A DNA stretch of 64,000 nucleotides from Treponema sp. (lineage in GTDB: Bacteria; Spirochaetota; Spirochaetia; Treponematales; Treponemataceae). The translations under genes were made by a program, and so were the position numbers. Of the stretch, positions 22,844-60,103 are shown piece after piece (positions within the stretch are counted from its first letter, which is position 1; each line of letters begins with the position of its first letter). The stretch is taken from assembly GCA_017446265.1 (NCBI GenBank), contig JAFSRD010000006.1, positions 26,860 to 90,859 on the forward strand, read 5' to 3'. The notes beneath the pieces are model-generated. The model was not told the DNA's origin, ran no database searches, and worked only from the letters and a program-made list of their open reading frames with translations.

Positions 22844-22927
22844 TGCCCGGAACAAGACTTGAACTTGCATGAGCTTGCACTCACTAGGACCTGAACCTAG
22901 CGTGTCTACCAATTCCACCATCCGGGC
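22844..22927 (-). tRNA. tRNA-Leu(CAG)
   Basis: 84 nt. Acceptor stem GCCCGGA/TCCGGGC with discriminator A. The D-arm has the leucine-type GGTGGAATTGGTAGACACG, the anticodon stem-loop is CTAGG-TTCAGGT-CCTAG (anticodon CAG), and there is a long variable arm and the T-arm GTTCAAGTC. CCA is not encoded (GCA follows). A T-rich run (ATTTTTTT) directly downstream is a likely terminator. Confidence 0.95.
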
Positions 22928-38176: not shown

Positions 38177-38193
38177 ATTAAATTTCACAAAAA

Positions 38194-38578
38194 GCAGATG
38201 GAACAGTAAGCCGGGTTCTGACACCGATTGCTCGGCATGACCATCTATCTTGAATGCAGATTGCCCTGCACTTCAAGCAACCTACCTGCAGTAAAAGTCG
38301 GAAACTACCTGCTGCTTGGTTTTGCTCCAAATGAGGTTTGCACTGCCGCATCAGTTGCCTGATGCGCGGTGGTCTCTTGCACCGCCTTTTCACCCTTATC
38401 TGCCTTGTGGCAGACGGTATGTTTTCTGTTGCACTTTCTGTCAGACAAAGGCTTTGCAAAATACAGTTCCTTTATCTGCCCGGTGATTAGCCGGCATTTT
38501 TTCCGAAGGAGCCCGGACTTTGTCTCACTGCTGCACGCTTGTCATTAAACAACAGCAGCGCGGCCATATCCCATCTGC
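38194..38578 (-). ncRNA. rnpB: RNase P RNA (type A)
   Basis: About 385 nt. The conserved 5' segment AAAGTCCGGGCTCC and the conserved 3' segment CAGAACCCGGCTTA are both present, as is the P4-region partner. Terminal helix P1 closes perfectly: GCAGATGG at the 5' end pairs with CCATCTGC at the 3' end. T-runs after the 3' end (TTTTTGTG) suggest termination. The RNA is the catalytic subunit that trims tRNA 5' leaders. It lies between the TPR protein and a zinc-ribbon gene on the same strand. Confidence 0.95.
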
Positions 38579-45984: not shown

Positions 45985-46066
45985 TGGGGAGTGAAGGATT
46001 CGAACCTCCGAAGGCGTAGCCAGCAGATTTACAGTCTGTCCCCTTTGACCACTCGGGAAACTCCCC
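45985..46066 (-). tRNA. tRNA-Tyr(GTA)
   Basis: 82 nt class II tRNA. Acceptor stem GGGGAGT/ACTCCCC with discriminator A, D-arm CCCGAGTGGTCAAAGGGG, anticodon loop CTGTAAA (anticodon GTA), long variable arm GGCTACGCC, T-arm GGTTCGAATCC. CCA not encoded. Confidence 0.95.
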
Positions 46067-46070
46067 AAAG

Positions 46071-46143
46071 AGCTGCCTGTAGGATTTGAACCCACGACCC
46101 CGAGATTACAAATCACGTGCTCTACCGACTGAGCTAAGGCAGC
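46071..46143 (-). tRNA. tRNA-Thr(TGT)
   Basis: 73 nt. Acceptor stem GCTGCCT/AGGCAGC with discriminator U, D-arm GCTCAGTCGGTAGAGC, anticodon arm CGTGA-TTTGTAA-TCTCG (anticodon TGT), T-arm GTGGGTTCAAATCCTAC. The third anticodon-stem pair (positions 29 and 41) is a T-T mismatch. It is co-transcribed with tRNA-Tyr four bases downstream. Confidence 0.93.
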
Positions 46144-49856: not shown

Positions 49857-51266
49857 TTACAATTTAACTGCAATCAGGAAAGACAAATCATGGAAGAACA
49901 ATTTGTTCATGTTGCCCCAGAAACCATCTGAAGTTTCATAATTGTTAATTTTTCCTTTAGTTGTGAAGTTTTTGAAAATCCCGTTTATAATTTCCCAGTT
50001 AACATCAAATTGCACTTTCTTTGCAATGTTCCAGGTAAATCCTGACCCCCAGGTAATGTCTCCTATAGTACCCGTATGATTAAACAAGAATGTTGTTGTT
50101 GTATTTTTATTTCTATCTGCGTCAACAGCTTGTGCAATTTTCCAGCCAAATGGATTTAGCCCAGCAGTAAAACCAAGGTTAATGCGGAATTTTTCAGGCT
50201 TTACCCAGAATTCAGCGCCAACACCAAGTATTGGGGTAAGTGTGAAATAATTTTCTACATTGTACGCAATAGCTGTGCCATCTTGAGTTTTTGCCCCATT
50301 TTTAAACTTTATTCCAAGCGGAAGCGCTGCTCTAAAGCCAAGTGCCACTTTTTCTGTTGGAGCGTATGTTACTTTGTAAGCAAGGTCAATTTTAAGGTCA
50401 GAGTCTACAGCGCCTTTTGAAATTACTTTTGTGCTGCCTGTAACGCTCTTTGAAGGAAGAATGCCTCCGCGCAGTCCAAGGCCAACGTCAAACCTTTGAT
50501 TAACATTGTCTTTTGGAGCAAGTTCAATGCCTGTTCCGAGTGCAAGAACAAGATTATAGGCGGTATTATAGACGGCAGTGCCAATAGTAACGCTATTACT
50601 TAATATTGTAAGCTCCCCGTCTACTTCAGTTGAGCTTTTTGCAACGTTTGCCTGAAGACCAAGTCTTGCCCATGGACTTAATGTAAGGCTTCCTGCTTCC
50701 GCGTTAAAGCCGAACGCAAGTTCCGGGAAAACAGTATATACTTCCTCCTTTGTAACAGTTCTTACACCACCAGAGGTCTCATCCTTGTTATCAACAGAAA
50801 CTGGTGCATAGTTAAGCCCTGCACGGAATCCAAAAATCCCAAAGCCAAACAATGATTGAAGTACGAATGTGTTGGTTGCATCAACCGTCAATTCCGTACT
50901 TTTACTGCCAGCTACAGCATTGTTTATGCTGACAGATTGCAATTTACCGAGTGTTCCGTCAAAACTCAAGCCCCAGTAAAATGGAGCAAACTGTTTTGCA
51001 AACCCTATGTCAATGCCACCGAGTCCCATATCGTATCCGACATAGCCGAAGAATTTTTCAGGCTTTACAGTAGACCAGCCGTTTACATTCATGAAGTCGT
51101 CTACCTCTGTGCCAAAAATACCGCCAGTTGTAGCAGTTGTAAACGAATAAGGCTGTCGCAACGAAGGAACATCTGCCTTCGTCATCGTCATTTGGGCAAA
51201 TAATGTTCCCCCAACAATTGTCAAAATGCTGCAAATCAGCATTATCTTAACGTTTTTCATATTCAT
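49857..51266 (-). CDS. Predicted outer-membrane beta-barrel protein
   Basis: 469 residues with a signal peptide (hydrophobic ~6-24, cleavage probably after LFAQ). The mature part is rich in alternating amphipathic strands with Gly and aromatic residues (KFFGYVGYDMGLGGIDIGF, FGIFGFRAGLNYAPV, VALGFRAALPLGIKF) and ends with a strand DLSFLIAVKL, as in outer-membrane barrels. Function could be pore or structural; no specific family identified. A strong promoter and GGGGGA ribosome site precede it, suggesting high expression. Confidence 0.75.
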   Translation of the reverse strand: MNMKNVKIMLICSILTIVGGTLFAQMTMTKADVPSLRQPYSFTTATTGGIFGTEVDDFMNVNGWSTVKPEKFFGYVGYDMGLGGIDIGFAKQFAPFYWGLSFDGTLGKLQSVSINNAVAGSKSTELTVDATNTFVLQSLFGFGIFGFRAGLNYAPVSVDNKDETSGGVRTVTKEEVYTVFPELAFGFNAEAGSLTLSPWARLGLQANVAKSSTEVDGELTILSNSVTIGTAVYNTAYNLVLALGTGIELAPKDNVNQRFDVGLGLRGGILPSKSVTGSTKVISKGAVDSDLKIDLAYKVTYAPTEKVALGFRAALPLGIKFKNGAKTQDGTAIAYNVENYFTLTPILGVGAEFWVKPEKFRINLGFTAGLNPFGWKIAQAVDADRNKNTTTTFLFNHTGTIGDITWGSGFTWNIAKKVQFDVNWEIINGIFKNFTTKGKINNYETSDGFWGNMNKLFFHDLSFLIAVKL

Positions 51267-51297: not shown

Positions 51298-51325
51298 ATT
51301 ATATAACAATATTTGATTCTGTCAA
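51298..51325 (-). promoter_or_regulatory. Promoter of the outer-membrane protein gene
   Basis: TTGACA (51320-51325), 16-bp spacer, TATAAT (51298-51303), both perfect hexamers on the minus strand. Confidence 0.8.
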
Positions 51326-51431: not shown

Positions 51432-52226
51432 TCATTCAAGCACACGAATAGGCGTTACGTTATTATACCGTTTGCACTCAAATTCAAACTCATTGATGTG
51501 CACCTGCACGTTGAACGATTTTTTCATGTTCGTCTCGTCAACAATTGCGCATGTGTTTCCAAAGCAGCTTGTGCCATCTCGGTTTAAAATGAGCGCATTC
51601 GTTCCTATTTTGAGCGCGTGCTGTGGATAATGTGTATTGATTATAGATGAAATGCCGTGCTCGTTTGCAAGGTGCTGAATAATCTCTAGCACCATGAGCT
51701 GATTTTTAAAATCAAGATTTGATTCTGGCTCATCGAGTACGAGCAGTTCTGGATTCACTGTAAGCGCACGCGCAATGAGCACCATCTGCAGCTCTCCGCC
51801 GATTATCTGCGTACACAGTTTGTCTTTAAGGTGCACAATGCCTACTTCTTCCATCGCTTGAAGCGAAAGCTCCTCATCTTTTTTTGACGGTTGCTCAAAC
51901 GTGCCCAAGTGTGCAGAGCGCCCCAACATCACCATGTCAAACACGGTAAACGCAAATGCAGAGCCTTTTGACTGCGGCACATATGCAATGCGCTGCCAGA
52001 ATTTTTTGTGTGGAATATCTGTTGCGCACACATCGTCAACATATGTTGCACCTGTTTGCCAAGCCAGCAATCCCATCATGCATTTTAAAAGCGTTGTCTT
52101 GCCAACGCCATTGGAACCAAGAATGCAAAGTACCTCGCCGCTGTGTATGTCAAATGAAATATTGTTGAGAATTAAATTTTTATGGTAGCCAAAGCAGCCG
52201 TTTTTTACAGAAAAATGCATTACCAC
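51432..52226 (-). CDS. ABC transporter ATPase (FecE/BtuD-type metal-chelate importer)
   Basis: 264 residues. Walker A L-G-S-N-G-V-G-K-T-T (~33-42), Q-loop FVPQ-like YVPQSKG, an atypical signature IIGGELQ in place of LSGGQ, Walker B LLVLDEPESNLD, and a switch His in IINTHYPQHA. It powers the permease whose stop codon it overlaps. The C-terminal ~40 residues extend beyond the usual end. Last gene of the nitrogenase-like operon; importers of this type carry iron-siderophores, haem or corrinoids. Confidence 0.92.
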   Translation of the reverse strand: MVMHFSVKNGCFGYHKNLILNNISFDIHSGEVLCILGSNGVGKTTLLKCMMGLLAWQTGATYVDDVCATDIPHKKFWQRIAYVPQSKGSAFAFTVFDMVMLGRSAHLGTFEQPSKKDEELSLQAMEEVGIVHLKDKLCTQIIGGELQMVLIARALTVNPELLVLDEPESNLDFKNQLMVLEIIQHLANEHGISSIINTHYPQHALKIGTNALILNRDGTSCFGNTCAIVDETNMKKSFNVQVHINEFEFECKRYNNVTPIRVLE

Positions 52227-53227
52227 ACGCCTCCTGTTTTTCGAAGCAGCACAATAAAAAACGGCGCACCAATTACTGCCGTCAAAATTGAAAGGGGAAT
52301 CTCTGCGCTTGTAGCTGCTCGTGCAACGGTGTCCATTATGAGCATGAACACAGCGCCAAATGAAATGCTCACAGGTACCACCGTCTTGTTATTGCTTCCC
52401 GTCAGCATGCGCGAAATGTGCGGAATTAAAAGTCCGACCCAGCCTATTTGCCCACACATGGAAACAGCAGAAGCGGTAATGAGCGAAGATGCAACAATCA
52501 CTGTCAGCTGCATAGCTTTTAGATTGATGCCCATAGAGCGCGATTCGTCTTCGTTGAGCGAAAGCACATTGAGCCTCCATCTGAGCACAAAGATGATTGC
52601 GATGCCTGCAAGGATGAACGGAACGCCGAGCGCAATAGTTTTATACGACGCGCTTGTCATACTGCCCATGAGCCAGTACGTAATTGACGGCAAATCATCT
52701 TCGGGGTCTGCAACATATTTTACAAGCGATACAAACGCCTGAAACAGCGCGGAAATCACCATGCCGGCAAGCACAATCATCACAATAGATGATTTGCCTT
52801 TTATGCGCCCAAGGTTATATGTTATCCAGCAGGCAAGCAGCCCAAACGCAAGCGCAGAAAGCTGAATAAAAATCAAGTTCACATGGAACAGCATTGCAAG
52901 CGCTGCTCCGAAAGATGCTGCGCTTGCAACGCCAAGCGTATCGGGAGTTGCAAGCGGATTCGTGAATAAACTTTGAAATGCTGCCCCTGAACACGCAAGA
53001 CCAGCTCCTACAAAAATTGAAAGGATAATGCGCGGAAGGCGCACATTGAATATGACAGAGTATGCCATAGGGTCTACATAGCGTCCTGTCAATCCATTGA
53101 CGAGCACAATAAGAGACTCAATTGGAGAAAGCGCAAACCGCCCAAAGCCAAGACAGCACAACGCTGCAACAATCGGCAATATAATGAGGAGCGGCGCAAA
53201 CAGTTTAAATCGTTTTTCGTTTGTCAT
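52220..53227 (-). CDS. FecCD-family ABC permease
   Basis: 335 residues, nine to ten membrane helices. Family signatures include VRLPRIILSIFVGAGLACSGAAFQSLFTNPLATPDTLG-type sequence near 65-100, IVMIVLAGMVISALFQA, and the C-terminal coupling region GWVGLLIPHISRML. FecCD permeases form homodimers that import metal chelates. Four-base overlap with the binding-protein gene upstream and seven-base overlap with the ATPase gene downstream. Confidence 0.93.
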   Translation of the reverse strand: MTNEKRFKLFAPLLIILPIVAALCCLGFGRFALSPIESLIVLVNGLTGRYVDPMAYSVIFNVRLPRIILSIFVGAGLACSGAAFQSLFTNPLATPDTLGVASAASFGAALAMLFHVNLIFIQLSALAFGLLACWITYNLGRIKGKSSIVMIVLAGMVISALFQAFVSLVKYVADPEDDLPSITYWLMGSMTSASYKTIALGVPFILAGIAIIFVLRWRLNVLSLNEDESRSMGINLKAMQLTVIVASSLITASAVSMCGQIGWVGLLIPHISRMLTGSNNKTVVPVSISFGAVFMLIMDTVARAATSAEIPLSILTAVIGAPFFIVLLRKTGGVW

Positions 53228-54342
53228 TTGTTTTTTATACCACCGCTTGCCTCGCGCACAGGATTATAAATCATATTTAACTCTGCATCAGAAAGATTCA
53301 TGCCGTAAAATGTTTGATAAAACTCACGCATATATGCATTCAAGTCAATATCTGCAAACACTTCAGGTTGATTTTGCTTTGCCATCCACAAAAGCATCAT
53401 AGGAGAATCTGAGCACGTAACATACCAGCGATACATGCCAAGCGGCACTTTGCACACCGCCTTGTTTTTTATTGCGTCCACTGTCGAAAAATCAAATGCA
53501 TGGAATGTACTGTTATATAAATCATACGGAAGCGCATCGTTGAAATTCGTGATATAGATTTTTTGTGGATTCCATTGATAAATTTGCTCCATAGTGACTG
53601 TCGGCGTGCCGCTCACACTTGCCGCTGCATTGCGTCCACCGGAAGCAGTTATCCAGTAATCTGCCCACGTTTTTAATCCAGGAATTCCTACTCCTGTTTC
53701 TGTATATCGATGGATGAACATGCATAAGGGCTTTTCATTTTCAGGAATATTTTTTACACGCGACGCGACAAGTTCCTGAATTTTATTGCCGTATGCAATG
53801 TAGTTGTTGTCGCGTATGTCTTTTCCCATAACTTCGCCGAGCAACGAAACCCAGCTGTTTATTGTTTCTACTGCGTTAAAATCTTTTACGTCCAGACTGA
53901 AGCCAACTGCGGGAATGCCTGCCGTGCGTGCCGCATCTCTATCTGCCATAATGCCCGAAGAATACAAAACGACATCTGGCTTGAGCGCAATCAACTCCTC
54001 AACGTTGAGCACGCCATTTTTGCTAAACGATGACGGCTTGTTAGACAAGTCGGGATATTTTTTAATAAGCATAGAATTTTCTGCTGCACTGATGATGGCA
54101 GGGTCAAGCCCGACAATTGAGTCAGTGCCGAACGCAAGGCAGTATACAGATGCAAGCGGCCATACAGATGCAATCACAACGCGCTCAACGTTTTGCGGAA
54201 GTACAACAGTGTCGCCAATCTGGTCAACGACAGTGCGCGTATTCTGGATGCCGTTGTCTTTAACGCCAAACGCAAAAAGCGAGCAAACAAACAATGGTGC
54301 TGTCCAAAAAAAATGGACAGCCGCTACAATATTTTTTTTCAT
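53224..54342 (-). CDS. Metal-chelate substrate-binding protein, paralogue A
   Basis: 372 residues. Signal peptide ~1-25 followed by a helical-backbone (FecB/TroA-like, Peripla_BP_2) binding protein: DQIGDTVVLPQNVERVVIASVWPLASV, LKPDVVLYSSG, AGIPAVGFSLD, and the C-terminal NPVREASGG. TGAGG lies eight bases before ATG 54342. Codons 8-15 are formed by a palindromic repeat (54299-54321), so the signal peptide has acquired the segment AAVHFFWTA. The body is otherwise normal. It ends in overlap with the permease gene, making it the most tightly coupled of the three binding proteins. Confidence 0.88.
   Translation of the reverse strand: MKKNIVAAVHFFWTAPLFVCSLFAFGVKDNGIQNTRTVVDQIGDTVVLPQNVERVVIASVWPLASVYCLAFGTDSIVGLDPAIISAAENSMLIKKYPDLSNKPSSFSKNGVLNVEELIALKPDVVLYSSGIMADRDAARTAGIPAVGFSLDVKDFNAVETINSWVSLLGEVMGKDIRDNNYIAYGNKIQELVASRVKNIPENEKPLCMFIHRYTETGVGIPGLKTWADYWITASGGRNAAASVSGTPTVTMEQIYQWNPQKIYITNFNDALPYDLYNSTFHAFDFSTVDAIKNKAVCKVPLGMYRWYVTCSDSPMMLLWMAKQNQPEVFADIDLNAYMREFYQTFYGMNLSDAELNMIYNPVREASGGIKNK
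54299..54321. repeat. Palindromic repeat inside a signal-peptide coding region
   Basis: GCTGTCCA (54299-54306) and TGGACAGC (54314-54321) form a perfect 8-bp stem around seven A's. It is the same sequence family as 49806-49832 and 46548-46571, but here it is inside the open frame of binding protein A and encodes residues 8-15. Confidence 0.75.
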
Positions 54343-54398
54343 AACAATTACCTCATTAATAATGTTGATATGCGCATGTGCTGATTTTTCGCGCTACG

Positions 54399-55502
54399 TT
54401 ATTTCCCGCTAGCTTCACGCGCGGGATTGTAAATTGCTTGCAAATCATCATCTTTTAAATCAACGCCATAAAATCGTTTGTAGTAGTCTTTGATTTCTTT
54501 GTCCATGTCGATGTCGGAAAAAAGTTCTGGTTGAATTTTTGTTGCAAGCCACTGCAACACAAGCGGTGTGTCAGAAGCAGGCGGGAACCAGCGATACATG
54601 CCGAGTGGAAATTTGTACACTTTTTTTTCTTTCACCGCTTTTACATGCGACCAGTCCGCACCATCAATCATGTTGGTAAGTAAATCCTCTGCGAGGCGCG
54701 GACTAAAATTTGTGATAAAAATCATATCAGGATTCCACTGGTAAACTTGCTCCATGTTGATTTTTAGTTGCCCTTTTGCATCAACAACGTTGTTGCCTCC
54801 TGGCGTTTCAATCCAGTATTTGCTGAAAAAATGATGCCCTGCAGCGGTCATATTCGATTCGTCATAATTGAACAAAATCATTACATTCGGTTTTTGACTG
54901 TCAGAAAGATTTGCAACTCTGTCTTTTATCTTTCTTTCAATAGCATAGCCGTAATCGATGATTTCTTTTGCGCGAGCAGTTTTCAAATCTTCGTTAAAAA
55001 TCTGACTGAGCAAATCAATCCAATCTGCATACGTGTCTATGCAATGCCATTCTTTTCGCGTTGTCGAAAAACCGATAGCAGGAATTCCTGCGTTTTCGTA
55101 AACCGCTTTTTCTTCATCATTAGCGGCTGCATAAAAAACAACGTCGGGATTCAATTTAAGCAACTCTTCAATATTTACTGCGCCGTTTTGCACAAACCTT
55201 GAATCGACATTTGCCACGTCTGGAAACACTTTTACAAGATACGAATTCTTTGCAGCTGCCATAGACGACGGATGCATCCCCACGAGTTTTTCAGAACTGC
55301 CCATATACATGCAGTACACAGAAGCAAGCGGCAGGATTGAGCCAATAACAACGCGATTTATTTGTGCAGGAATGACAATGTGCGCGCCTGTATGGTCAAC
55401 GATTGTTCGTGCAGCAAGCGATTCCGTCTTCCTCGCCTTTGTGCATCCGAGCAAACTCATCACAACTAGCAAGCCGCAAAACACTTTGATAATTTTTTTC
55501 AT
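54399..55502 (-). CDS. Metal-chelate substrate-binding lipoprotein, paralogue B
   Basis: 367 residues from ATG 55502, which has TAGGAG eight bases upstream; the open frame continues far further but inside paralogue C. Signal with lipobox L-L-G-C. Same fold and motifs as its neighbours: DHTGAHIVIPAQINRVVIG, LVGMHPSS, LNPDVVFYAAAND, AGIPAIGFSTT, NPDMIFITNF, FPLGMYRWFPPASDTP, and the terminal NPAREASGK. Likely hands an as yet unknown chelate to the permease encoded downstream. The three paralogues suggest three ligands or affinities. Confidence 0.88.
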   Translation of the reverse strand: MKKIIKVFCGLLVVMSLLGCTKARKTESLAARTIVDHTGAHIVIPAQINRVVIGSILPLASVYCMYMGSSEKLVGMHPSSMAAAKNSYLVKVFPDVANVDSRFVQNGAVNIEELLKLNPDVVFYAAANDEEKAVYENAGIPAIGFSTTRKEWHCIDTYADWIDLLSQIFNEDLKTARAKEIIDYGYAIERKIKDRVANLSDSQKPNVMILFNYDESNMTAAGHHFFSKYWIETPGGNNVVDAKGQLKINMEQVYQWNPDMIFITNFSPRLAEDLLTNMIDGADWSHVKAVKEKKVYKFPLGMYRWFPPASDTPLVLQWLATKIQPELFSDIDMDKEIKDYYKRFYGVDLKDDDLQAIYNPAREASGK

Positions 55503-55512
55503 TTTTTTTCTC

Positions 55513-56622
55513 CTATTTTCCACTTGCTTCACGGCGAGGATTGTAAATCGCCTGCAAATCGCTCTTTGCAAGTTCAACGCCGTAAAATTTTTTGAAGTAC
55601 GAAATAATTTCTTTATCCATGTCAATGTCAGAAAAAAGCTCGGGCTGCATTTGCTTTGCAAACCACTGCAGCGCGAGCGGCGTGTCGGAACTCGGAGGCG
55701 CCCATCGATACATGCCGAGTGGATTTTTATACACCTTTTTGTTTTTAATCGCTTTAATCGAAGACCAATCGTAAATGCCGATTGCATTTGTATACAAATC
55801 TTCTGGCAGCGCGGGCGTAAAGTTAGTTAAAAAAATCATGTCGGGATTCCAGTTGTAGATTTGCTCCATGTTCAACGAATTGTTGCCTTTTAACTCGTAT
55901 GATGCATTTTTGCCGCCACATGTTTCGCACCAATATTGATTGAACATATTGCCGCCGTATGTGGTGATAGAATTTTCTTCGCACGAATAGAGATACAGGC
56001 AAATAGGTTTTTGCTCGTCCGTAAGTTTTGAAGTGCGCTCCTTCACCATTTTTTCAACACTTCTTCCGTATTCAATAATTTCGTTTGAACGTCCTGTGTC
56101 GCCAAAAATCTCACCGAGCAGTGCAATCCAAGACGCATATGTCTCAATCGTGTTGTACCCAGCAATCGTTGTTGAAAATCCAACGCATGGAATTCCTGCA
56201 GCGGCAAACATTTCTTTTTCCACCGTGTTTGATGCATTGTATAAAACCAAATCAGGGTTTAATTCCAAAAGCTGCTCGACATTTACAACGTTATTCTTTA
56301 CAAAACTTGAATCAATATCGTTGATACTGGGGTAGAATTTTGCCAGATACGAATTTTTTCCCGCAGCCTTTGAAGATGGATGCATCCCGACAAGTTTATG
56401 AGGTCCGCCAAGGTACAGGCAATAAACTGAAGGAAGCGGCAAAAGCGATGAAATGACTACTCGTTCAGGTTTTTCTGGAATCACAATTACATTTCCTGTA
56501 TGGTCGATAACTTCTTTTGTTTTACTTTGCGCATTTTGCTCTTTGCTTCCCAATGCGAATGAGTAAAAAGAAATCGAAAATAGCATGCATGCACATATGG
56601 TGCGAACAATTATTTTTTTCAT
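55513..56622 (-). CDS. Metal-chelate substrate-binding protein, paralogue C
   Basis: 369 residues. Signal peptide ~1-23 (…SFYSFA), then DHTGNVIVIPEKPERVVIS, LVGMHPSSKAAGKNSY, LNPDLVLYNASN, AGIPCVGFSTT, WNPDMIFLTNF, NPLGMYRWAPPSSDTP and terminal NPRREASGK. Clearly closest to paralogue B. GGAGG precedes ATG 56622. It lies 40 bases after the nitrogenase-like K subunit gene and ten bases before paralogue B, without a visible terminator, so enzyme and importer genes are one transcription unit. Confidence 0.88.
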   Translation of the reverse strand: MKKIIVRTICACMLFSISFYSFALGSKEQNAQSKTKEVIDHTGNVIVIPEKPERVVISSLLPLPSVYCLYLGGPHKLVGMHPSSKAAGKNSYLAKFYPSINDIDSSFVKNNVVNVEQLLELNPDLVLYNASNTVEKEMFAAAGIPCVGFSTTIAGYNTIETYASWIALLGEIFGDTGRSNEIIEYGRSVEKMVKERTSKLTDEQKPICLYLYSCEENSITTYGGNMFNQYWCETCGGKNASYELKGNNSLNMEQIYNWNPDMIFLTNFTPALPEDLYTNAIGIYDWSSIKAIKNKKVYKNPLGMYRWAPPSSDTPLALQWFAKQMQPELFSDIDMDKEIISYFKKFYGVELAKSDLQAIYNPRREASGK

Positions 56623-56662
56623 ACGATTACCTCCATTGTATGATGATAGTAAAGTGATACTG

Positions 56663-57898
56663 CTATGCCCAACCTATCACCTTATTAAGTACATTTTCAA
56701 ATTCACGCGACATAAAGCGCGGGCACATGTTCCATGATATGCGCCCTGAAACTCCTGAATGATATACTGGCACGCACTTTGTTCCTTGCGTTTTCACAAG
56801 CTGCAACACAAGTGGGTCAGCAATGACTGCTGCAAAATGTTCATCACGCAAAATAGTGCGAAGCTGCTTTTCGTGTTTTATTGCATAATCACTGCTTTCA
56901 AGCAAAAACGGCGTTGTATCAAAAAGAGAGGCGACGCGCACATCCGCGTTACAACCTTTTTCGCGAAAATAATTCCGTATAGAAAGCGAAATAACTTGGT
57001 CACCCGCTATGAGGATTTTTTTTCCCGTGTCCGCGCTTTCTTTTATAGGAAACGGCACAAATCCATTTTGCTCATGCGCAATTTTTCCGCACAAAAAACG
57101 CTGCACATGAAAAAGCAGCGCATGCGCATCTGCAACTGGCGTTTGCACTGTAAACGGAATGCCGTACTCGCGGTACATGAACAATGCTGTTTCAACACCG
57201 CTTTGCGATACAACAACGTTCAACTGCGCACTTGATGAATGTGCAACGTCATCAAGCGACAGCCCCATGCAAAAATTGGCAATGACGGGAATGCCGTTCG
57301 ATGCAAACAGATTTTTAAAATCTTCATCGTTGTGTTCAAGTGAAAAATCTATAGGCGTAACACCAAGTATATTTACGCCGCGATGTGCTGCATTATTCTT
57401 CTCGTGTTTGCCCTGCACCACGCTGCTATCGCTTTGCATTTTGTCTTCAACTTTCATTGCAAGCCGTTTTACAAGCGGAATAATCGCCTGATTAAAACCT
57501 GTTCCGTAATAATGCAAGCCATTTGTCGCAACGCCAAAGCACGGAATTCCCGTCCTGCTTTCAATATCTTTCGCAAGCCCTTTGAAATCAGTTCCAATAA
57601 TCATGGGCACAGGGCTTCCGAGTATTGCAATGAACCTTGGCTTGAGCGAATCTGCTGCCGCAAGAATCCTTTCAACAAACACATCGTCAGTGCCGAGTAT
57701 TGCGTCCATGTGGCGAAGCCCAGAACAAAACACAGGCGTTTTTGCATTAAACCAGCGCGGCTCTTCATAGCCGACATAATTTCCCGTGCAGCCAGATGCG
57801 TCATGAATTACAATCATGCCGCCCAAATCAAACAGCGATGAAGCTGCTCCCGAATAATCTGGTGCAAGCGGCGGCAGCGTAATGCTCAATTTGCTCAT
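56663..57898 (-). CDS. Nitrogenase component-1-like protein, subunit 2 (K-like)
   Basis: 411 residues of the NifD/K/E/N, ChlN/B and CfbD superfamily (Oxidored_nitro). N-terminal LAPDYSGAASSLFDLGG leads to the cluster region: C37 in ASGCTGN and C58 in VFCSG. The third P-cluster position is Ser95 (LGSPVPMIIGTDF), where nitrogenases have Cys. The cofactor-site segment reads AQLNVVVSQSGVETA (224-238) without the Cys that holds FeMo-co in NifD. GIPCFGVATNGLHYYGTGF is the usual switch region. Overlaps the subunit-1 gene by four bases, so a stoichiometric complex is expected. Confidence 0.85.
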   Translation of the reverse strand: MSKLSITLPPLAPDYSGAASSLFDLGGMIVIHDASGCTGNYVGYEEPRWFNAKTPVFCSGLRHMDAILGTDDVFVERILAAADSLKPRFIAILGSPVPMIIGTDFKGLAKDIESRTGIPCFGVATNGLHYYGTGFNQAIIPLVKRLAMKVEDKMQSDSSVVQGKHEKNNAAHRGVNILGVTPIDFSLEHNDEDFKNLFASNGIPVIANFCMGLSLDDVAHSSSAQLNVVVSQSGVETALFMYREYGIPFTVQTPVADAHALLFHVQRFLCGKIAHEQNGFVPFPIKESADTGKKILIAGDQVISLSIRNYFREKGCNADVRVASLFDTTPFLLESSDYAIKHEKQLRTILRDEHFAAVIADPLVLQLVKTQGTKCVPVYHSGVSGRISWNMCPRFMSREFENVLNKVIGWA

Positions 57899-59151
57899 AT
57901 GATTAACCCCGCATTTGCAATAAGTTTGTGCACGTTTGATTCTTTTTCCATTGCGTGAATAAGTTCGTCCATCATTTTTTTGATGCCATCAAAACCGAAC
58001 AACGCATCATCATCCATGAGCGGAGAAACATGTACAGAACCAGTTAAATAACCTGCGTCAAAACCGATGCACAAAAAATCGTTGCCACGCAACTGATATT
58101 TTATTTGGTTGTAATGCATTGCGTTCACAATTTGCACATGCGGGCAATGCGCTTCTATCCATAGTTTATGTTCTACATCCACCGCAAGACATTCTTTTGC
58201 CACGATGAGCTGTACATTGAAGCCGTATTCAACAAGTGCGTGCGCCAAGCTGAATGGCAACAGCACCGCCTGATAATCGACTGCAATCGGTGTATCGTCG
58301 AGAACACGTTTTGCTTCTACGATTTTTTGCTGCGCATGCACACGGTATTGCGTATAATCAAACTGCCCGATGTCGAGCTTTTGTGAAAGCGCATCGTAAA
58401 ACGCGCACACTTCATCAATGTGATAGGTAACGAACGACTGCATCACAGGAATGCCGAGCATGTCTGCCATGCGTTTGCACGCTTTTTTTGCAACAGGGCG
58501 CAATAAAAGATTAAGGCACGCGCTTCCAAGCGCTTGGAATTCTCCAAACGTTGCACATTCACTAATTTGGCAAACGTCATAATCATGTTTTTTGAGCAAC
58601 GCAAAAAGTTCGCACGATCGCGCAATGGCGGCGTTGTTGCCAATAAGATTTACCTGTTTTTCCTTTTGCTGCTTTGGAAGCAAGCTGTACATTGCATCAA
58701 GCAACGTTACGCCAGGCGGATTAGGCGTGTCCATAGACATAGGATTCATGTGACATGTGCGGAACGCAACATCGGGATGTCGTGATGAAAGTTCTGCAAT
58801 AATTGCATCATTATCTGTACCGAGCAAATCATCAATGCATGACACAAATACAAAAAGCACTTTCGGCTTTGCATCAAGAAAATCAAAGAGCTCTTTAACT
58901 GAATCAAGAATGAGGTTCTCATAGTTGCCCGAAACAATGTCACTTTCATCGATATATAAATATGAAATGCGCTCTTTTATGCCAGCCTCAATGCCGCCAA
59001 GCGCACCGTGCCTGCCGCATGCAGAGGGGGCAACAAACAGCAAGTGGCTTTCTGGCACTAATGCAGCGACGCGGATAACGCCCCACCCTCCGTGAGACGG
59101 AGAAACATATTGCAATGTTTTTGAAAAATCTGTGCAGCAGCATCCGCTCAT
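57895..59151 (-). CDS. Nitrogenase component-1-like protein, subunit 1 (D-like)
   Basis: 418 residues from ATG 59151, which overlaps the nifH-like stop by four bases; the frame is open 17 codons further. Cluster-type cysteines: C4-C5-C6 at the very N-terminus, C45 in SACGRHG and C105 in VSCIDDLLGTD, an arrangement resembling the three P-cluster cysteines of NifD. The segment matching the FeMo-co cysteine region is ACLNLLLRPVAKKA (211-224) and lacks the ligand. It therefore groups by motif with the tetrapyrrole- or other substrate-reducing members rather than with true nitrogenase. Substrate unknown. Confidence 0.85.
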   Translation of the reverse strand: MSGCCCTDFSKTLQYVSPSHGGWGVIRVAALVPESHLLFVAPSACGRHGALGGIEAGIKERISYLYIDESDIVSGNYENLILDSVKELFDFLDAKPKVLFVFVSCIDDLLGTDNDAIIAELSSRHPDVAFRTCHMNPMSMDTPNPPGVTLLDAMYSLLPKQQKEKQVNLIGNNAAIARSCELFALLKKHDYDVCQISECATFGEFQALGSACLNLLLRPVAKKACKRMADMLGIPVMQSFVTYHIDEVCAFYDALSQKLDIGQFDYTQYRVHAQQKIVEAKRVLDDTPIAVDYQAVLLPFSLAHALVEYGFNVQLIVAKECLAVDVEHKLWIEAHCPHVQIVNAMHYNQIKYQLRGNDFLCIGFDAGYLTGSVHVSPLMDDDALFGFDGIKKMMDELIHAMEKESNVHKLIANAGLII

Positions 59152-59951
59152 TTTTGCACCTCGCATATTTGCATGACTTTTTTTGCAAGCTCCACATAGC
59201 ATTGCGCCTGCTCAGATTCAGGATACGCTTCTACAACAGTCTTGCCTTGGTTTTCTGCAAGCTGCACTGTATCGCTTCTGGGAATGACGGACACAATTGA
59301 GCCGCCAATTTCTTTAAGCGCCGTTTCAACAACAGCAACCTCGTCTTTTACATTGCGCGAATTGAGGATAACGCCTGCATAAGAAGCGTATCCGCGCGAT
59401 CCAAAATTTTTTACTGCGCTTACAATGTTGCTTGCCGCATACAATGCCATCATCTCACCTGATGTGACGACAAACACATTATCTGCGTAACCGTTTCTAA
59501 TCGGCATAGCAAAACCGCCGCACACAACATCGCCAAGCACATCGTACAGCACAATATCGGGCTTGTAAAAATCGTATGCGCCAAGCTCTTCAAGCTTTTC
59601 AAACGCGGTGATGATTCCTCGTCCCGCGCAGCCGAGTCCCGGAGTTGGACCGCCTGCTTCTACGCACAGCACGCCGCCATACCCTTTAAAAACAATATCG
59701 TCGAGCGTTATGCCTTCTGATGTGGCGCCTTCCCACTTTGAAACGCCCGCGTTTTTTGCAGACTGCTCACGCAATAAGTCGAGAACTGTTGGAATCTTTT
59801 TTCCGCCCATAAGATTTTTCACTGAATCAGATTTAGGGTCACAACCAATCTGCATCACCGTAAAACCAAGCGAACTCAATCCCGCAGAGAGATTTGATGT
59901 CGTTGTTGATTTCCCGATTCCACCCTTGCCGTATATAGCTATTTTTTTCAC
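59148..59951 (-). CDS. NifH-like nitrogenase reductase (iron protein)
   Basis: 267 residues from GTG 59951, chosen because AGGAG lies five bases upstream; an ATG seven codons earlier (59972) has no ribosome site. NifH-like proteins are dimeric ATPases that send single electrons to a component-1 partner. P-loop GKGGIGKSTT (9-18), cluster ligands C108 in GCAGRG and C144 in GDVVCGGFAMP, and the switch regions are all intact, including Arg111 at the ADP-ribosylation position of NifH. First gene of an operon with two component-1 genes and a complete ABC importer; no nifB, nifE/N or molybdenum genes are near. Confidence 0.93.
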   Translation of the reverse strand: MKKIAIYGKGGIGKSTTTSNLSAGLSSLGFTVMQIGCDPKSDSVKNLMGGKKIPTVLDLLREQSAKNAGVSKWEGATSEGITLDDIVFKGYGGVLCVEAGGPTPGLGCAGRGIITAFEKLEELGAYDFYKPDIVLYDVLGDVVCGGFAMPIRNGYADNVFVVTSGEMMALYAASNIVSAVKNFGSRGYASYAGVILNSRNVKDEVAVVETALKEIGGSIVSVIPRSDTVQLAENQGKTVVEAYPESEQAQCYVELAKKVMQICEVQK

Positions 59952-59984
59952 ATATGCTCCTACTGCTGCCATTCATTGGCTGTT

Positions 59985-60000
59985 GATAATCATAATAATG
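59985..60000 (-). promoter_or_regulatory. Fur-box-like AT motif before the nifH-like gene
   Basis: GATAATCATAATAATG resembles two of the three GATAAT hexamers of a Fur-type box. It falls in the untranslated leader of the operon. Weak evidence on its own. Confidence 0.3.
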
Positions 60001-60047
60001 CGTAAATAACAAATTCTGCATCTGTGCTGGAAATATTAGTTATCTAT

Positions 60048-60065
60048 TGCTAATTATTATTAGCA
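60048..60065 (-). promoter_or_regulatory. Putative operator of the nitrogenase-like operon
   Basis: Perfect inverted repeat TGCTAAT (60048-60054), 4-base spacer, ATTAGCA (60059-60065), located ~10 bases downstream of the -10 hexamer, on the predicted transcription start. The placement fits a repressor site, possibly for a metal-responsive regulator. Confidence 0.55.
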
Positions 60066-60074
60066 GTAGACAAT

Positions 60075-60103
60075 TTTATAAATGATTTGTCATATATTGT
60101 CAA
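60075..60103 (-). promoter_or_regulatory. Promoter of the nitrogenase-like operon
   Basis: TTGACA (60098-60103), 17-bp spacer, TATAAA (60075-60080) on the minus strand, about 120 bases before the nifH-like start. Confidence 0.75.

Follow-up and report, generated by a model that had tools for sequence, protein, structure and literature searches.

Few reactions of the nitrogenase superfamily are known, those on N2, chlorophyll precursors, F430, methylthio-alkanes and isethionate, and its Fe protein, as is established for NifH and BchL, hydrolyses ATP to drive the transfer of low-potential electrons. Release of iron from ferric siderophores in the cytoplasm is the task of other reductases and esterases, namely FhuF, SIP and Fes, and we know of none among these three that is a nitrogenase-type, ATP-driven enzyme. 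The locus described here, part of a 64,000-nucleotide stretch of Treponema sp. DNA (the window), joins a NifH-type Fe protein (H) and two component-1 subunits (D and K; together HDK) to an ABC importer. The closest described loci are those of Dos Santos et al. (2012, PMC3464626), in which, according to the accessible part of that paper, a NifH-like gene and two component-1 genes of Clostridium and Methanocorpusculum adjoin genes for ABC transporters; D/E of these clades conserves two cysteines and K/N a single one, and no function had been assigned at that time. The window has a like gene set and the same 2+1 cysteines, whereas that part of the account reports neither regulation nor a count of co-conservation, and names no spirochaete with this arrangement. 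What was already known is the co-location of nitrogenase-like genes with ABC transporters and, from the same part of the paper, a guess of metal-cofactor assembly.

Other systems are comparable in part. MarHDK and IsrHDK (methylthio-alkane and isethionate reductases) are likewise substrate-using nitrogenase-like reductases, and Isr operates with the importer SsuCAB, a likeness to the present pairing of reductase and importer; in the available excerpts, Mar and Isr are each accompanied by a radical SAM protein, while no radical SAM partner gene was found among our eight operon genes. In DPOR (BchLNB), BchN provides three Cys and BchB an Asp (PMC11423573, in the portion available), unlike the present HDK group, which has two Cys in D, plus a His in 40/43 loci, and one Cys in K. 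CfbCD supplies the model nearest to H, but CfbD is a single subunit where two are present here, and FhuF, SIP and Fes would perform the same job as we propose for HDK, the release of iron in the cytoplasm. Among the matches listed by a literature search, thin on subscription papers, there was no study of a nitrogenase-like enzyme in iron or chelate metabolism and no function for the HDK group.

Our reading, to which we give a probability of about 0.42, is that HDK is an ATP-driven reductase that strips an imported chelate of its metal, iron being the likeliest. We favor it because the reductase is joined to an importer and is apparently co-regulated with other metal transporters. New in this work are the figures for how often reductase and importer are conserved together, the switching between transporter families, a shared palindrome with metal-transport targets, a testable mechanism and, in addition, the finding that Hyp and [NiFe] hydrogenase genes are missing from the importer-type genomes tested. 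If the reading is true, metal acquisition joins the list of nitrogenase-superfamily functions, and it could be explained how anaerobes free iron from chelates that lie beyond NAD(P)H reduction. The earlier note had seen the novelty in the presence of a substrate-importing reductase in a spirochaete, a claim that finds no support, given that D and the binding protein both have close homologues outside spirochaetes, in Lachnospiraceae (both in Lachnospiraceae bacterium 54-53), and that ABC co-location was published in 2012 (PMC3464626, accessible part). A search of genome contigs gave one locus only.

Layout of the operon

Eight adjacent minus-strand genes (51432-59972) encode, in order, HDK, three FecB-type binding proteins, a FecCD permease and an ATPase (PF00142; PF00148 twice; PF01497 three times; PF01032; PF00005). 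The features are as follows:

60075..60103, minus strand: promoter TTGACA-17-TATAAA before H, read from sequence
60048..60065, no strand assigned: palindrome TGCTAATAATAATTAGCA, predicted operator, 8/12 match to TGTTAG-N6-CTAACA
59148..59972, minus strand: H, NifH-type Fe protein (ATP-dependent reductase), PF00142 307 bits
57895..59151, minus strand: D, first component-1 subunit, PF00148
56663..57898, minus strand: K, second component-1 subunit, PF00148
55513..56622, minus strand: binding protein 1 (FecB type), PF01497
54399..55502, minus strand: binding protein 2 (FecB type), PF01497, N-terminal lipobox-like LLGC
53224..54342, minus strand: binding protein 3 (FecB type), PF01497
52220..53227, minus strand: FecCD-type permease, PF01032 278 bits
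51432..52226, minus strand: importer ATPase, PF00005

From H to the ATPase the intergenic gaps are -4, -4, 40, 10, 56, -4 and -7 bases. The start of D is most likely 59151 (residue 18 of the open reading frame) because its homologues begin there, which yields the 4-base overlap with H; the start of binding protein 2 was corrected from 55787 to 55502, and a GTG at 59951 may well be the start of H. The -35 box TTGACA (60103-60098) is separated by 17 bases from the -10 box TATAAA (60080-60075), a promoter that the consensus scan did not list because it requires the final base to be T. TGCTAATAATAATTAGCA, a perfect 18-base palindrome within a 28-base inverted repeat (60043-60070), follows shortly after the -10 box. 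Coordinates, Pfam families, gaps of -7 to 56 bases and this promoter thus bear out the earlier note's description of eight same-strand genes in this order, with overlaps or short gaps, behind one promoter, and the eight genes likely form one metal-regulated operon transcribed as a unit. All eight minus-strand terminator-like sites listed fall inside genes (17 sites in all, against 11.3 in shuffles, sd 3.4). An internal transcription start may exist in the gap between K and binding protein 1, since a weak promoter-like site (56671-56643) spans it, one of 13 promoter-like sites in all, against 18.6 in shuffles.

The importer belongs to Type II (FecBCD/BtuFCD), as its three PF01497, one PF01032 and one PF00005 matches lie over their cut-offs. 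Its binding proteins are paralogues (55% identity for 1 and 2, 43% for 1 and 3, 42% for 2 and 3), and the permease is presumably a homodimer, because the operon has one permease gene.

Family placement of the HDK proteins

Cysteines at the NifH cluster positions (C115 and C151) were present in H of 43/43 loci, and the P-loop GKGGIGKST in 27/27. D was accompanied by K in 42 of 43 loci; in the remaining one the extracted stretch stops after D. By alignment, D keeps two P-cluster cysteine positions in 43/43 loci and K keeps one, C37, in all 42 loci that reach that position, that is, three of the six positions for D and K together, nitrogenase having three in each. None of the NCBIfam cut-offs for NifHDK/EN, DPOR, COR and CfbCD was reached by H, D or K. 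The closest model for H was CfbC (329 bits, cut-off 402); H scored 326 against NifH (cut-off 394), 195 against BchL (cut-off 345) and 194 against BchX (cut-off 331). D scored 25 bits to NifE (cut-off 505) and 26 to BchN (cut-off 420), with no match to CfbD; K scored 52 to NifE, 21 to NifD (cut-off 654), 34 to BchB (cut-off 490) and 25 to CfbD (cut-off 268). In the H tree, the clade is separate from the references (support 95.6/90), a rough placement, as the only outside references were a NifH, a BchL and a Mar-like sequence, with no CfbC. D and K are 14% and 18% identical to the Mar-like pair used for comparison, which itself scores 422 and 369 bits to the 9fmg/9d9u chains. By their scores below the cut-offs and, for H, by this three-reference tree, the proteins fall outside the characterised groups of the superfamily; within these limits, the placement inside such a group that the earlier note named as refuting its proposal was not observed.

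These features bear on what the importer might bring in. A molybdate or tungstate importer of the MolABC type, supplying HDK with Mo or W, is a very improbable alternative. MolA is the second-best PDB match, but several ligand types share this fold; moreover, half of the P-cluster cysteine positions and all of the nitrogenase cut-offs are missed, as given above, and MoeA is missing from 28/35 HDK genomes, the source genome included, so that Mo use is rare. Around the FeMo-co ligands alpha-Cys275 and alpha-His442 the alignment is weak (16% identity).

That HDK reduces an imported haem or corrinoid, as DPOR, COR and CfbCD reduce their tetrapyrroles, we consider unlikely, although it is a rival of equal weight, as tetrapyrroles are the substrates of DPOR and CfbCD and iron regulation would be expected of haem use too. 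Haem would be the foremost substrate, its ring opened or dearomatised and its iron freed without oxygen. The accessible part of one account (PMC12552129) states that DPOR and CfbCD hold only [4Fe-4S] clusters, and H is marginally closer to CfbC than to NifH (329 vs 326 bits). The best NCBIfam matches are BtuC for the permease (209 bits, cut-off 461) and IsdE for binding protein 2 (53, cut-off 299); those of the ATPase are haem, corrinoid and siderophore importer ATPases, all below their cut-offs. The corrinoid version finds no backing in RNA elements: a cobalamin riboswitch is missing from the source genome, which led us to reject cobalamin regulation, an Rfam search of 18 related loci gave no match, and the Rfam-type RNAs of the window are RNase P and three tRNAs only, none near the operon.

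Conservation of the reductase with an importer

With a threshold of E up to 1e-20, D was found in 29/274 genomes of the window's family, 26 of the window type and three of a sister type. All 26 window-type loci were read. Sequence continues for 5 kb or more past K in 22 of them, and in 22/22 a binding protein, permease and ATPase follow directly downstream of HDK; the other four end sooner, each showing a binding-protein gene. The locus that T. saccharophilum carries on its plasmid pTS1 was left out of this count, being apparently the same species as another locus. Recurrence of the gene order in 22/22 family genomes is more than chance. The importer genes of this family are of the FecBCD kind only, and in the 22 complete loci the stretch from H to the ATPase consists of HDK and transporter genes only, binding protein 3 being often found in relatives upstream of H, on either strand.

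In a second family D was present in 16/195 genomes, and in 14 of the 15 loci read an importer adjoins HDK; the exception lies on a short contig with less than 600 bases of flank on either side. The conservation of reductase and importer together, which the earlier note had expected, therefore extends beyond the window's family. The adjoining genes are FecCD in 8/15 loci, Opp/Nik-like in 7/15 (one of them a weak partial match only) and CbiM-CbiQ-CbiO in 1/15, two loci having two kinds. FecCD and Cbi families transport metals or metal chelates, and Opp-type importers also peptides. HDK's partner thus switches transporter family, yet most loci have what resembles an importer of metals or metal chelates. 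In the sister locus of Sporomusa termitida, a TonB siderophore receptor (over its cut-off), a FecBCCD-type importer, HDK and a PF00756 esterase occur together.

It is unlikely that the importers bring nickel or cobalt, as ion or chelate, for HDK to release, insert or reduce. Where second-family Opp-type operons were read further, genes for a NicO-like protein, a MinD-type ATPase and a binding protein of family 5 come after the importer; because these operons carry nickel-type genes, the nickel or cobalt reading is strengthened and that of iron release weakened. However, the Opp permease (254 bits, cut-off 350) and binding protein (95, cut-off 393) are both under the nickel cut-offs, the window's family has FecBCD genes only, a palindrome shared with HDK precedes five FTR1 iron permeases (see below), and [NiFe] hydrogenase (PF00374) was found in 0/35 genomes.

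Rather improbable, in our estimate, is a NifEN-like scaffold in which HDK builds the imported metal into a metallocofactor for another enzyme, the 2012 idea of metal transport coupled to cofactor assembly (PMC3464626, accessible part). A sister HDK subfamily does adjoin HypF, HypD and HypE-like genes, but HypD was detected in 0/32 importer-type genomes tested as opposed to 3/3 Hyp-type genomes, and the same hydrogenase result and the gene content of the 22 complete loci also speak against a scaffold. The HypD and PF00374 counts led us to reject a role in [NiFe] hydrogenase maturation.

A shared palindrome and the proposed mechanism

Upstream of HDK in relatives the palindrome TGTTAG-N6-CTAACA recurs, with 55 sites of at least 10/12 matches in 30 of 41 loci (47 minus Sporomusa, four sister-type loci and one lacking upstream sequence). 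Other spacings from 0 to 12 gave 0 to 9 sites each against 55 at spacing 6, 200 shuffles of the upstream regions gave a mean of 0.97 and a maximum of 4, and the density is 2.9 per kb upstream vs 0.036 per kb elsewhere in these loci; as the motif was derived from these same regions and the loci are related, these figures do not constitute an independent test. The window is among the eleven loci with no site at this level and carries the variant TGCTAATAATAATTAGCA. This site is the single match of TGYTARNNNNNNYTARCA in the source genome, where a control pattern has two.

Exact sites number 28 in 32 genomes, against 12 for the reversed pattern, and the surroundings of 26 were read. Nineteen of these lie at HDK (5), FTR1 iron permeases (5; two assigned by Pfam, three by 71-94% identity), FecCD loci (2), Trep_Strep ECF (3), exporter-fold ABC (2), ZIP (1) and MntP (1). 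One of the FecCD sites has a TonB receptor gene on one side and, on the other, genes encoding a lipoprotein, a Fur-family protein and two permeases, and the MntP site is 262 bases off, a MATE-like gene being nearer on the other side (by eye). The TTAG-N6-CTAA core resembles DtxR-family boxes, and DtxR-family domain matches occur in 35/35 genomes. Judged by these targets, the palindrome would mark a predicted metal regulon, iron likeliest, nickel or manganese possible. Of the readings that the earlier note offered, the corrinoid loses ground: the shared palindrome and its other targets favor a metal regulon, iron first, and the riboswitch and Rfam searches came back empty.

Returning to iron release by HDK, the binding proteins would capture a ferric chelate, probably siderophore-like, that the FecCD permease and ATPase would carry into the cytoplasm, and HDK would, we infer, act on this imported substrate itself. 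H, hydrolysing ATP, would feed electrons into a [4Fe-4S] cluster between D and K, with C45, C105 and perhaps H20 of D and C37 of K as putative ligands; in the structure model of D, residues 1-7 and 9-22, a stretch that includes H20, have pLDDT below 50. The cluster would then reduce the bound Fe(III) chelate, from which Fe(II) would depart, and a metal-dependent repressor, as the palindromes suggest, would switch the operon on under iron scarcity. For ferric siderophores the Fe(III)/Fe(II) couple lies at -350 to -750 mV vs about -320 mV for NAD(P)H (PMC9727729, in the portion available), so that a ferric chelate can have too low a potential for NAD(P)H; HDK would supply ATP-driven electrons of low potential. 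More tentatively, reductase and importer may be one pathway, in which the whole ferric siderophore is imported and then stripped by ATP-powered reduction at potentials beyond NAD(P)H, and it would serve distantly related anaerobes, treponemes as well as Lachnospiraceae.

Two known operators were rejected. The T. denticola TroR oligonucleotide is a different palindrome, and, with few exceptions among the loci, the best match to the classical Fur box was equalled or beaten by at least 5/100 shuffles; the window scored 13/19, which 4/100 shuffles reached. The remaining 7/26 exact sites lie, by eye, near an enolase, two short-chain dehydrogenases and others with no clear assignment. In one genome (G231), the palindrome is found at HDK and also at a FecBCD operon on another contig, whose binding protein shares 46% identity with binding protein 2 of the window and whose permease shares 64% with the permease there.

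A sister reductase subfamily with Hyp genes

A sister subfamily of the nitrogenase-like HDK genes, the D protein of which shows 26-31% identity, occurs in three Treponema genomes (related loci L123:5888-13825, L125:2941-13308 and L126), each of which carries two HDK sets. It is accompanied by HypF, HypD and HypE-like genes, as identified by Pfam run on L123, and a genome search located HypD in the genomes of L125 and L126 too, these three being the only ones among 35 to have it. A [NiFe] hydrogenase large subunit was found in none of the 35 genomes searched, and the presence of HypDEF without such a hydrogenase may point to a new cyanide-bearing iron cofactor.

Other genes beside HDK in related genomes

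The following genes lie near HDK in related loci:

L052:122-4305 and L052:8523-11833, Mar-like and importer-linked HDK of one genome
L060:6743-7624, L130:3420-4286 and L134:5385-6299, [FeFe] hydrogenase catalytic-domain-like protein (PF02906)
L053:8998-9771, methyltransferase gene, between D and K

The Mar-like set, about 4 kb from the importer-linked one, scored 422 bits against 9fmg chain A. In two genomes the PF02906 gene, whose product is a possible electron partner, separates K from the FecCD permease, and in the third it adjoins the Opp-type operon.

Predicted metal transport and its regulation

In the second family of HDK loci, an Opp-type operon runs divergently from HDK (L133:3-5433, L134:6323-12001 and L135:3-2851) and extends to a NicO-like gene. 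At two of these three loci it also includes a family-5 binding protein and a MinD-type ATPase that is CooC-like, as judged by eye. We predict that this is a nickel-type operon. Because the operons of Trep_Strep (PF09605), an uncharacterised ECF transporter, share the palindrome TGTTAG-N6-CTAACA in L155, L158 and L170, we suggest that this transporter is metal-regulated.

In the window's own genome (locus L177, contig C32), a TonB system was found:

L177:4088-7961, tonB, an exbB-like gene and a single gene for a TonB-dependent receptor

The receptor, the sole plug-domain match in this genome, may let the chelate through the outer membrane.

Other features of the window

51298-51325, minus strand, promoter-like TTGACA-16-TATAAT, a perfect match, upstream of a 469-residue ORF (49857-51266)
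38190-38578, minus strand, bacterial RNase P RNA
22844-22927, 45985-46066 and 46071-46143, three tRNAs
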